Positions 50,127 through 53,851 of a DNA stretch of 64,000 nt are shown one piece after another (within the stretch, counting starts at the first letter, position 1; each line of letters starts with the position of its first letter). The notes below the pieces were generated by a model, which was not told the DNA's origin, searched no databases, and was given only the letters and a program-made list of their open reading frames with translations. The stretch comes from Leifsonia sp. AK011 (GTDB lineage Bacteria > Actinomycetota > Actinomycetes > Actinomycetales > Microbacteriaceae): the NCBI RefSeq assembly GCF_013410945.1, contig NZ_JACCCH010000001.1, positions 620,001 through 684,000 of the forward strand, written 5' to 3'. Position numbers and translations under genes: made by a program.

Positions 50127-51647
50127 CTACCAGCCGACCGACAGCGCCTGATCGACGGATGCCGGCGGCGCTACCGTGCGCGTCTGCGTGTTGCTCCTGA
50201 CCGGAGGCCGCAGGTACGGGGCCGGATCGAACGTGCCATTGCGCTCACGGAACTCCTTGGCCGACCCCGGCCACAGGAGGGTGAGGCGCCCGCTACGCGG
50301 ATCGAGGTACCAGCTGTCGCATCCGCTCAGCCACACCGTGGGCTCGGCCATGCGGTCGATCTCCGCGGCGTACGAGCGTTCCGCTTCGGCACTCACCTCG
50401 AGCACACCGACCTCGGTGAGGTGCCCGAGTGCGCCGAGCACGTACTGGAGTTGCGTCTCGATCATGTAGATCGCCGAGTTGTGTCCGAGGCCCGCGTTGG
50501 GGCCGTTGACGACGAAGAGGTTGGGGAACCCGTGCACACTGGTCGACGCGAAGGCGGTCATCCCGTTGCTCCAGTGCTCGGCAAGGGTGACGCCGCCGAT
50601 ACCCTCGACGAGATGCGCGTAGGGCTGTTCGGCGGATTCGAAGCCTGTCGCGAAGATCACGACGTCGGCGTCATAGCGCTCGCCGCTCGCCGCAACCAGC
50701 GTGCCCTGGTCCACGGATGCGAGGGCTGAGGGCTCGAGCTGCACCGCACCGCTCGCGACCGCCGGGTAGTAGTCGTTGGAGATGAGCCGCCGCTTGCAGC
50801 CGATCTCGTAGTCGGGGGTGAGCGCAGCGCGGAGGCGGGCATCCGCCACCTGGGAGTGCAGGTGATCGAGGGCCTCCTGCCGGGCCGCGGCGATTGCAGC
50901 TGGGTCGCCAGCCCGGGCTGCGAACATCGCCTCGCCCTCCCAGAACTGGGCGGTGCGCACCCGCTCGACGGCGTCGGGGTCGCTCGCGAACTCGCTCAGC
51001 TCGTCGTAGGAGTAGGCGCGGTCCGGGCGCGGCACGATCCAGGGCGCGCTGCGTTGGAAGACGGTGACGGATGCCGCCACCCCGGCCAGCTCCGGAACCA
51101 ACTGCACCGCCGAGGCTCCCGTGCCCACCACGGCCACGCGCTTGCCCGCGAGTTCGAGGTCGTCTCGCCAGCGGGCCGTATGCATCATGTCGCCCGTGAA
51201 CGTCTCGATGCCGGGGAGGTCGGGGATGCGCGGCTCGGTGAGTCGCCCGGCCGCGAGGATCACGGCATCGGCCGTGAGGCTCCCGCCGCTCGTCGTGACC
51301 CGCCAGACCGCCCACTCGTCGTCCCAGCGGAGGGCTGTCATCGCGGTGCCGAGACGCAGGTGGTCGCCCAGGCTTTCGCTCACGACGGCGCGGCGGAGGT
51401 AGGCGTGGATCTCGCCGCCCCGGGCGAAGACGTTCGACCAGCCAGGATTCGGCAGGAACGAGTAGCTGTAGAGGTGCGAGGGAACATCGCACGCGACGCC
51501 GGGGTAGGTGTTGTCACGCCACGTGCCGCCGACCGACTCGCCGCGCTCGATCACGACGAACGACTCCTCGCCGGAGCGGCGCAGCGCGATGGCCGCGCCG
51601 AGACCCGCGAAGCCCGCGCCGATGATGGCGACCCGCACATGGGTCAT
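50127..51647 (-). CDS. Flavin-containing, Baeyer-Villiger-type monooxygenase
   Basis: 506 aa. N-terminal FAD motif GAGFAGLG (10-17), the Baeyer-Villiger fingerprint F150-T-G-D-M-M-H156-T-A-R-W160, and the NADPH Rossmann motif VVGTGASAVQL (~174-184). A second motif (D-V-V-I-F-A-T-G-F) follows. It should insert oxygen next to a carbonyl or oxidise a heteroatom with NADPH and O2. Its ATG overlaps the fbiC stop (ATGA, 51644-51647), so it is co-translated with the F420-synthesis protein; that link to F420 is unusual because BVMOs use NADPH. Confidence 0.9.
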   Translation of the reverse strand: MTHVRVAIIGAGFAGLGAAIALRRSGEESFVVIERGESVGGTWRDNTYPGVACDVPSHLYSYSFLPNPGWSNVFARGGEIHAYLRRAVVSESLGDHLRLGTAMTALRWDDEWAVWRVTTSGGSLTADAVILAAGRLTEPRIPDLPGIETFTGDMMHTARWRDDLELAGKRVAVVGTGASAVQLVPELAGVAASVTVFQRSAPWIVPRPDRAYSYDELSEFASDPDAVERVRTAQFWEGEAMFAARAGDPAAIAAARQEALDHLHSQVADARLRAALTPDYEIGCKRRLISNDYYPAVASGAVQLEPSALASVDQGTLVAASGERYDADVVIFATGFESAEQPYAHLVEGIGGVTLAEHWSNGMTAFASTSVHGFPNLFVVNGPNAGLGHNSAIYMIETQLQYVLGALGHLTEVGVLEVSAEAERSYAAEIDRMAEPTVWLSGCDSWYLDPRSGRLTLLWPGSAKEFRERNGTFDPAPYLRPPVRSNTQTRTVAPPASVDQALSVGW

Positions 51648-53851
51648 GCGAGCTTCCTGTCGGGTTCCCCGTAGGTGGTGGTGCGCTGGCGCAGGGGGCG
51701 GAAAAGCTTGCCCGTGATCCTGCGCGCGTGGTCGAGGGTCAGCTCCTGGCCGAACTCGACGCCGAACTCCGGCCGCACCCGGCCGTCGAGGAGGGTTCCG
51801 CCGAGGTCGTCGGCGCCGGCCTGAAGCATGGCGGCGGATGCCTCGAACCCGAGCCGCGTCCACGGCACCTGGATATGACGGATGTGCCCGTTCAGCAGTA
51901 TGCGCGACACGGCATGTACCGCGCGATGCTCGTCGAGGCTCACCGTCGACCCGGGCAAGGGGATGGGCACGAACTCCGTGAATCCACCGGTCTCGTCCTG
52001 GATCTCGATGAGTCGTTCCAGGTGCGCGATGCGCTGCTCGGCGGTCTCGCCGTGACCATAGAACATGACGGAACTCGTGCGGAAGCCCACTCGGTGGGCC
52101 GCCGTGATGACCTCGACCCAGCGTTCGATCGGCAGGTCGGTGGGGGCGATCCGGCTACGCACGCGCTCGTCGAGGATCTTGAGGCCAGTACCGGGGATGG
52201 TGTCGACACCCGCATCGCGGAGCGCTTTGAGCGCGGCATCCAACGACAGGCCGCTGCGGGTGGCGAAGTCGTTGATGTCCGCAGGGCGGAAGGCGTGCAG
52301 GTGGATGCCCGGCGCGGCGCTCTTCACGGCCCGGGCCAACTCGAGGTATTCCCCTCCGGGCATGAGGCCCTGCACACACAGCTCGGTAGCACCGAGCTCC
52401 CAGGCGTCGCGGGCTACCGCTGCCGCGCCCTCGATGCCGTACTCGGCGAACCGCGACGAGTCGAGGTTGCGGTTGACGACGATGCTCACCGCCTCGCCCA
52501 CGGTGTACCGCCGCAGGTCGTTGGCCCGTGCCACAAGCTCGTCGAGGGGCTCGTCCCGCTGGTTGAGGAGCCCGCGCAGCGGGCGTCTCGAAACCTCACC
52601 AACGTCATCACCCTGCGAGGTTTCGAGACTCATCCCACGAGTCGCTGCCAACCCTCGCTCATCCGCCATCTCCACCACCCGCGCGACAAGCCCCGCGTCG
52701 ACCCACTCGTCGTTCAGGTACTCGGGATGCGCGGTCAGACGCTCGCGCAGCTCGAAGCCGAACCGCGCGGTGGACGCCGCGAGGTCCTCCAGTTGCGGCC
52801 ACGGCCGCTCGGGGTTCACGTGGTCCGCGGTCAGGGGGCTCACGCCACCCCAGTCGTCCGCGCCGGCCCGCACCAGCAGTTCGAACTCGCTGGCGTCGGA
52901 GAGATTCGGTGGAACCTGGATGCGAGCATCCGCCCCCATCACGATGCGTGCGACCGCGACGGCCGCCACGTACTCCAGCAGCTCGGCGTCCGGAACGCCC
53001 TGCATCGCCGTGTGGGGCTTCGCACGGAAGTTCTGCACGATGACCTCCTGCACGTGTCCGTGCCGATCGTCCGCATCGCGCAGCGCGATGAGGGACTCCG
53101 CCCGATCACGCACGGTCTCGCCGATGCCCACGAGGATGCCCGTGGTGAACGGAACACGGGCGGCCCCGGCATCCTCGATCACCTGCAGGCGTACCGCCGG
53201 GTCCTTGTCGGGCGAGCCGTAGTGGACCTGCCCCTTCTCCGTGTACAGCCGGGTCGACGTCGTCTCGAGCATCATGCCCATCGACGGCGCGAACGGCCGC
53301 AGGTACTCGAGCTCCGCAGCGGTCATCACGCCGGGGTTGAGATGCGGCAGCAGCCCGGTCTCCTCGAGCACCGCCTGTGCCATGTGCGCGACGTAGTGGA
53401 TGGTCGACTCGTAGCCGTGCTCATCGAGCCACGCCCGGGCCTCTGGCCAGCGCTCCTCCGGGCGGTCGCCGAGTGTGAACAGCGCCTCCTTGCACCCAAG
53501 AGCGGCGCCCTCGCGTGCGACCTGCAGGATCTGCTCGCGACTCATGTAGGCGGGCTTGCCGAGCTTGAGCAGCTGGCCGGGGGTGTCGACGAAGATGCAG
53601 TAGTGGCAGCGGTCACGGCACAGGGTCGTCACCGGCAGGAACACCTTGCGCGAGTACGTGATGACCCCGGGGCGACCGGCGCGAGCGAGGCCTGTGTCAC
53701 GCAGGTGCGACGCGAGGTGCAGCATCCGCTCGAGGTCATCGCCGCGTGCCTGGAGGAGTGCTTCCGCGTCGTCAACGGATGCCCGGCCTCCCGCCGCGAC
53801 ACGCTCGAGGATCTCGTCGATCGTGGAGCGATCCGAGCGCAGCAGCGTCAT
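51644..53851 (-). CDS. fbiC: FbiC-like FO synthase; CofG half intact, CofH half lacks cluster cysteines
   Basis: 735 aa; mycobacterial FbiC is about 856. Residues ~55-350 are a CofG radical-SAM domain with C78-x3-C82-x2-C85 (CRDRCHYC). Residues ~435-735 align by eye with CofH: NDLRRYTVGEAVS, ELCVQGLMPGGEYLEL, LHAFRPADINDFATRSGLS, DTIPGTGLKILDE, VMFYGHGET and RQRTTTYGEP. However, where CofH has [15 protein letters not shown] the sequence reads NRNLDSSRFAEYG, so the [4Fe-4S] cysteines and about 20 residues are gone without a frameshift. The linker contains the in-frame family A repeat. CofG should still work; FO synthesis would need another CofH. ATG 53849-53851 is 6 nt after a minus-strand TACGCT (53858-53863). 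Confidence 0.88.
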   Translation of the reverse strand: MTLLRSDRSTIDEILERVAAGGRASVDDAEALLQARGDDLERMLHLASHLRDTGLARAGRPGVITYSRKVFLPVTTLCRDRCHYCIFVDTPGQLLKLGKPAYMSREQILQVAREGAALGCKEALFTLGDRPEERWPEARAWLDEHGYESTIHYVAHMAQAVLEETGLLPHLNPGVMTAAELEYLRPFAPSMGMMLETTSTRLYTEKGQVHYGSPDKDPAVRLQVIEDAGAARVPFTTGILVGIGETVRDRAESLIALRDADDRHGHVQEVIVQNFRAKPHTAMQGVPDAELLEYVAAVAVARIVMGADARIQVPPNLSDASEFELLVRAGADDWGGVSPLTADHVNPERPWPQLEDLAASTARFGFELRERLTAHPEYLNDEWVDAGLVARVVEMADERGLAATRGMSLETSQGDDVGEVSRRPLRGLLNQRDEPLDELVARANDLRRYTVGEAVSIVVNRNLDSSRFAEYGIEGAAAVARDAWELGATELCVQGLMPGGEYLELARAVKSAAPGIHLHAFRPADINDFATRSGLSLDAALKALRDAGVDTIPGTGLKILDERVRSRIAPTDLPIERWVEVITAAHRVGFRTSSVMFYGHGETAEQRIAHLERLIEIQDETGGFTEFVPIPLPGSTVSLDEHRAVHAVSRILLNGHIRHIQVPWTRLGFEASAAMLQAGADDLGGTLLDGRVRPEFGVEFGQELTLDHARRITGKLFRPLRQRTTTYGEPDRKLA
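52561..52655. repeat. Family A inverted repeat inside fbiC, copy A3
   Basis: Inner arms GTCTCGAAACCTC (52585-52597) and GAGGTTTCGAGAC (52617-52629) are exact complements and match copies A1 and A2. The left side keeps GGTTGAGGAG (52561-52570). It is read in frame and codes residues ~400-430 of FbiC (GMSLETSQGDDVGEVSRRPL), in the inter-domain linker. Confidence 0.85.

Follow-up and report, generated by a model that had tools for sequence, protein, structure and literature searches.

CofH, or the C-terminal half of FbiC (EC 2.5.1.147), is the radical S-adenosylmethionine (SAM) enzyme that acts ahead of CofG in the synthesis of FO, the deazaflavin precursor of cofactor F420. Oxygen-dependent replacements of radical-SAM enzymes are known, such as HemF for HemN and AcsF for BchE. 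According to part of the 2021 review of F420, all studied producers make FO by a universal mechanism that employs two radical-SAM domains (PMC8498797). A search of the open-licence literature, with subscription papers outside its scope, yielded no description of a CofH lacking its cluster or of a Baeyer-Villiger monooxygenase taking part in F420 synthesis. Here, we describe an fbiC-like gene in a stretch of 64,000 nucleotides from Leifsonia sp. AK011 (contig NZ_JACCCH010000001.1, positions 620,001 to 684,000), referred to below as the window, in which an intact CofG half is fused to a CofH half without its iron-sulfur cluster loop (CofH*) and is followed by a gene for a type I Baeyer-Villiger-like flavin monooxygenase (BVMO). 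Judged from sequence comparisons, CofH* and the BVMO probably perform the task of radical-SAM CofH in FO synthesis in an O2-dependent, cluster-free manner, with CofG finishing FO. The loss of the cluster ligands across a whole clade, the constant BVMO linkage, the completeness of the remaining pathway in the genomes tested, purifying selection and a replacement in Gordonia all argue for this reading. As in the HemF/HemN and AcsF/BchE pairs, an O2-using enzyme would take the place of an oxygen-sensitive radical-SAM step; unlike in those pairs, the radical-SAM fold itself stays, without its cluster and alongside a flavoenzyme.

An FbiC-like protein with a cluster-less CofH half

The fbiC-like gene (51644..53851, minus strand) encodes a protein of 735 amino acids (aa), and its frame, read from 53851 to 51644, contains zero internal stops. 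The CofG half (residues 1-405; 52637..53851, minus strand) carries the motif CRDRCHYC and scores 479.4 bits with the CofG profile TIGR03550, above the curated cut-off of 213.35. The CofH* half (about residues 424-735; 51644..52582, minus strand) is a barrel of the MqnE/CofH radical-SAM type without the cluster loop: sequence alignment places NRNLDSSRFAEYG (52436..52474, minus strand) at the site where canonical relatives have the CX3CX2C loop, and about 23 alignment columns are absent. The blocks LCVQG, HAFRPADI, DTIPGTG, MFYGH and RQRTTTYG are all kept in the translation. The protein falls below the cut-offs of both the CofH profile TIGR03551 (299.8 bits against 374.1) and the bifunctional CofGH profile (916 bits against 1018). 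The initial annotation was thus correct in reporting an in-frame loss of the cluster cysteines from a CofH half that retains its conserved blocks. It also put the protein at about 120 aa short of mycobacterial FbiC, an estimate of which the missing loop makes up about 23 columns.

An assembly deletion near position 52450, or chance, can be dismissed as the origin of the gap, because the same gap is found in two species of the same genus (G022, 86% identical, and G024, 79%) and in 39 of 108 loci. The 108 loci, collected through protein similarity searches and from related genomes, divide into 39 without CX3CX2C and 69 with it. The possibility that the cluster is held by other cysteines was likewise rejected, as only one cysteine column occurs in more than five rows of the 37 aligned CofH* halves, namely C492 (37/37), which is shared with canonical CofH; no alternative CX3CX2C is present in the C-terminal halves aligned.

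Rather than a single odd protein, as it had first appeared, CofH* represents a widespread clade. It is found in Microbacterium oryzae, M. barkeri, M. ginsengisoli, M. aurantiacum, M. gallinarum, M. ulmi, M. enclense, Microbacterium sp. Leaf151 and metagenome-assembled genomes (MAGs), as well as in Humibacter albus, Subtercola boreus, Promicromonospora soli and MAGs of Cryobacterium and Herbiconiux, and its relatives span five actinobacterial families (groups f1, f8, f9, f15 and f22). In a tree of 37 of the 39 CofH* rows and 35 of the 69 canonical rows, the CofH* sequences form one group with a support of 100 in the Shimodaira-Hasegawa-like approximate likelihood ratio test (SH-aLRT) and a stem of 0.7 changes per column; loci L171 and L175, the matches of which come in two pieces, were omitted from alignment and tree. 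The CofH*-BVMO pair of L031, on a contig labelled Acidobacteriaceae, groups with the Promicromonospora pair, and the contig is probably mis-binned. The FbiC of Williamsia muralis (L065:5234-6211) has a CofH half that diverges strongly, on a branch of 1.75, and in which CEPGCRYC is still present. A DNA search of plasmids gave no match, and a plasmid protein search returned 73 records irrespective of cysteine motif, all below 60% identity.

The two halves of the protein differ in conservation, as assessed with 37 CofH* and 69 canonical rows (kept, present in 90% of rows; lost, in 10% or fewer). Of 102 canonical invariants of CofG, 96 are kept in CofH* loci and none is lost; of 84 in CofH, CofH* retains 43 and has lost 22. 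The lost positions include the three cluster cysteines as well as, in QGG, the second G and, in MEETISR, the second E and the R. Together with the missing CX3CX2C, the sub-threshold profile score and the accompanying BVMO, these losses set CofH* apart from CofH and the C-terminal half of FbiC. CofH* has also gained invariants of its own, R522, G690, P694 and E699, each in 37/37 rows. In six CofH* pairs, the ratio of nonsynonymous to synonymous substitution rates (dN/dS) is 0.14-0.23 for CofH*, compared with 0.10-0.18 and 0.11-0.22 for the accompanying CofG and BVMO, respectively; in three canonical pairs, it is 0.04-0.14 for CofH and 0.06-0.12 for CofG. By this measure, CofH* is under purifying selection, and a decaying pseudogene was rejected on the CofH* values.

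The constant flavin monooxygenase partner

The BVMO gene (50127..51647, minus strand; 506 aa), which the initial annotation did not mention and which proved to be the decisive feature of the locus, is the constant neighbour of CofH*. The fbiC stop and the BVMO start overlap in the four bases ATGA (51644..51647, minus strand), an arrangement that may reflect translational coupling; a start allowing a 4-base overlap is available at 31 of the 35 parsable CofH*-BVMO junctions (57 scanned). Among solved structures, the closest relatives of the window BVMO are cyclohexanone, steroid and phenylacetone monooxygenases. Type I BVMOs are recognized, in the part of the source used here, by the fingerprints [AG]GxWxxxx[FY]P[GM]xxxD and FxGxxxHxxxW[PD] (PMC6058054). 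The first occurs in 37 of 39 CofH*-linked rows and in the locus DNA of the remaining 2, which are C-terminal pieces, so that all 39 loci have it, as type I BVMOs do; the second is matched strictly in 26/39 and is often altered at its last position, which, along with the tie to a cofactor-biosynthesis gene, distinguishes these enzymes from known type I BVMOs. In a tree of 54 rows, the 39 BVMOs linked to CofH* group in a single clade (support 97/94).

All 39 cysteine-less loci, which uniformly lack CX3CX2C as the window protein does, have the BVMO, and none of the 69 cysteine-bearing loci has it, 4 kb or less of flank on each side being covered for most canonical loci. When the set is extended to 80 distinct CofH* loci (the 39, 36 from Gordonia and 5 more of the window's order), the BVMO lies 3' of CofH* on the same strand in 80/80, is 51-80% identical to that of the window and is separated from CofH* by an alignment gap of 0-902 bases; within the DNA fetched, it is absent from all 91 cysteine-bearing loci (69 plus 23, one locus being shared). 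A survey of 297 genomes of the order, with coordinates matched by eye, found the BVMO by CofH* in 24/24 CofH* genomes, all confirmed as cysteine-less in fetched DNA, and at that position in 0 of 30 canonical genomes at E 1e-70, seven of which have a 36-45% identical BVMO paralogue elsewhere. Genome G052, with a shortened CofH that is below the cut-off and has no motif region, was excluded from both counts. Where the genes are split (12 loci of the order), the BVMO goes with CofH*, lying 3' of it on its strand, and not with CofG, which is on the other strand in 11 loci and outside the fetched DNA in one.

The two closest BVMOs unlinked to CofH (G339 and G169) adjoin alpha/beta hydrolases, and a homologous hydrolase lies between CofH* and the BVMO in three of the 78 CofH* loci scanned (L122, L139 and L161), which fits a BVMO that forms esters and descent from an ester-making, ester-cleaving pair; a signature scan found no alpha/beta hydrolase beside 13 more distant BVMOs.

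The ever-present BVMO, combined with the loss of the cluster and of 22/84 canonical invariants, could also mean that the BVMO alone makes the benzylating species for 5-amino-6-ribitylaminouracil and that CofH* is a non-catalytic scaffold or delivery partner for CofG. We regard this as unlikely, since 43 invariants are kept, four residues (R522, G690, P694 and E699) have become invariant in 37/37 rows and purifying selection persists.

The remaining F420 pathway and the exchange in Gordonia

The window gene appears to be the first of a run with fgd, as initially annotated: the upstream open reading frame is divergent, and the BVMO gene and then fgd lie downstream. Fgd, encoded two genes downstream of fbiC, scores above its cut-off. 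The feature past the BVMO gene is at 49086..50099 (minus strand). The divergent frame (53988-55088) would encode a secreted-looking protein of 366 aa with a C-terminal hydrophobic tail and an LAATGSS stretch.

For a second CofH, one of three readings offered initially, the search was negative: in the 99.9% complete genome, the full-length FbiC protein matches at a single place (E up to 10), and TIGR03551 matches only the 735-aa protein there. The TIGR03551 search covered 32 genomes, 21 of them with CofH*; these 21 contain no further CofH, their matches being CofH* and CofG parts only, bar one 22-bit match in G070. In the CofH* genomes covered by this count and the following ones, all of them outside Gordonia, CofD is above the cut-off in 21/21 genomes and CofE in 25/25, and CofC is present in 25/25 and above the cut-off in 21; in G000, all three are above. 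When CofH* loci were clustered into gene families, only the FbiC parts and the BVMO were common to all, genes similar to fgd and to cofC/cofE being frequent but not constant.

Genomes with a partial pathway were also observed. G020 (L148) shares cofD and the order of c32-c35 with G017 (L122), without fbiC and the BVMO there; as CofD, CofE and a CofC match below the cut-off remain, it may be an FO scavenger. G037 has CofD without an FbiC match, and the same-genus G001 and G010 have a CofE-like protein above the cut-off and match neither CofD nor FbiC.

A natural exchange is seen in Gordonia, where 36 of 59 genomes have CofH*, 23 have canonical FbiC and 0 have both. All 36 CofH* loci have no motif, have the BVMO next to CofH* and mshB near, and cofG accompanies them in the 18 loci for which a sufficient length of DNA was fetched; the 23 canonical loci all combine the motif with mshB and are without the BVMO. 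In G636, a Gordonia genome from another order than the window, the gene order is cofH*-bvmo-cofG, and the neighbourhood of cofH* is that of canonical fbiC in the same-genus G626, flanked in both by what we take, from our own reading of the proteins, to be typA, a lipoprotein gene, mshB and a small gene. The CofG of G636 shares 75% identity with its counterpart in G626 FbiC, and its CofH* and BVMO best match, among the loci compared, those of Humibacter, Subtercola and other Micrococcales (55-60%); by these identities, CofG is native, and CofH* and the BVMO resemble Micrococcales genes. The swap at the same site indicates that CofH* and the BVMO stand in for the radical-SAM CofH half.

Two further explanations bear on the pathway. 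In the first, FO is no longer made but taken up, and CofH* and the BVMO serve another reaction, the pathway gene being on its way out. Uptake is conceivable, given that G020 and G037 have CofD without an FbiC/CofH match; with CofG fully conserved, CofH* not decaying and exactly one version held beside mshB in each of the 59 Gordonia, we consider it the least probable of the readings. In the second, which is very improbable, the product of the pair is a deazaflavin precursor of another chemical structure, from which CofG yields a modified FO. The different chemistry and the many lost CofH residues would suit such a product, and variation at another step, that of 3PG-F420, provides a precedent in part of the review (PMC8498797); CofG, CofD and Fgd, however, are ordinary family members above their cut-offs. 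As the F420 pathway is otherwise complete, CofG is unchanged and CofH* replaces the CofH half in Gordonia, a different way of making FO has the best support among the three readings offered initially, and it is unlikely that the protein as a whole has changed its function.

A candidate oxygen-dependent route to FO

We infer that CofH* and the BVMO would yield the same CofG substrate as canonical CofH does. As general chemistry has it, a 4-hydroxybenzyl ester is a ready source of quinone methide, and phenylacetone monooxygenase makes benzyl acetate. The CofH reaction, as given in part of the review, can formally be viewed as the addition of a 4-hydroxybenzyl cation to C5 of 5-amino-6-ribitylaminouracil (PMC8498797). 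Tentatively, with odds that we place somewhat below even, the BVMO would form a 4-hydroxybenzyl ester that gives a p-quinone methide, which CofH* would couple to 5-amino-6-ribitylaminouracil. The BVMO would insert oxygen into a tyrosine-derived carbonyl, e.g., that of 4-hydroxyphenylpyruvate or 4-hydroxyphenylacetaldehyde, and the resulting ester would lose its carboxylate to give the p-quinone methide. CofH* would hold 5-amino-6-ribitylaminouracil and bond its C5 to the benzyl carbon, so that no radical would be needed, and the intact radical-SAM CofG would then complete FO. The emptied radical-SAM fold might, with the same reserve, be a polar C-alkyltransferase fed with p-quinone methide by the BVMO, in an O2-dependent second route to the deazaflavin core. 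Since CofH* and the BVMO are the only constant neighbours, any further substrate supply should be a housekeeping function.

Several observations weigh against the replacement of radical-SAM CofH by CofH* and the BVMO. The loci are related by descent, so their counts are not independent events. The dN/dS of CofH* exceeds that of CofG in 6/6 pairs, canonical CofH being the higher in one of three controls, and CofH* may be only a scaffold. The CofH* match of L175 (G142, a draft of 700 contigs) is split over two frames, by a sequencing error or in a broken gene. In the window BVMO, the last position of the second fingerprint is R instead of P or D, and nine of the 297 genomes surveyed in the order carry a wider-family BVMO without any CofH match, two of these BVMOs being close (G339, 52%; G169, 48%). 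Finally, the mshB tree (35 CofH*, 22 canonical and 2 other rows; two of 61 rows were too short) needs three weakly supported label changes, only one of them being required by branches with good support, which makes the number of swaps in Gordonia uncertain.

The occurrence of a cluster-less CofH* beside an O2-using flavin enzyme in many soil bacteria suggests a second, O2-dependent route to F420. Annotation by the CofH cut-off would fail to recognize that CofH* functions in the pathway. In F420 production in Escherichia coli, oxygen limitation favoured FO (PMC11917521); if our reading is correct, CofH* and the BVMO might make the first step of such production less sensitive to oxygen. It would also mean that the CofH* clade, in Microbacterium, Gordonia and others, breaks the universal rule of two radical-SAM domains for FO, with O2 chemistry replacing radical chemistry inside one conserved fold.

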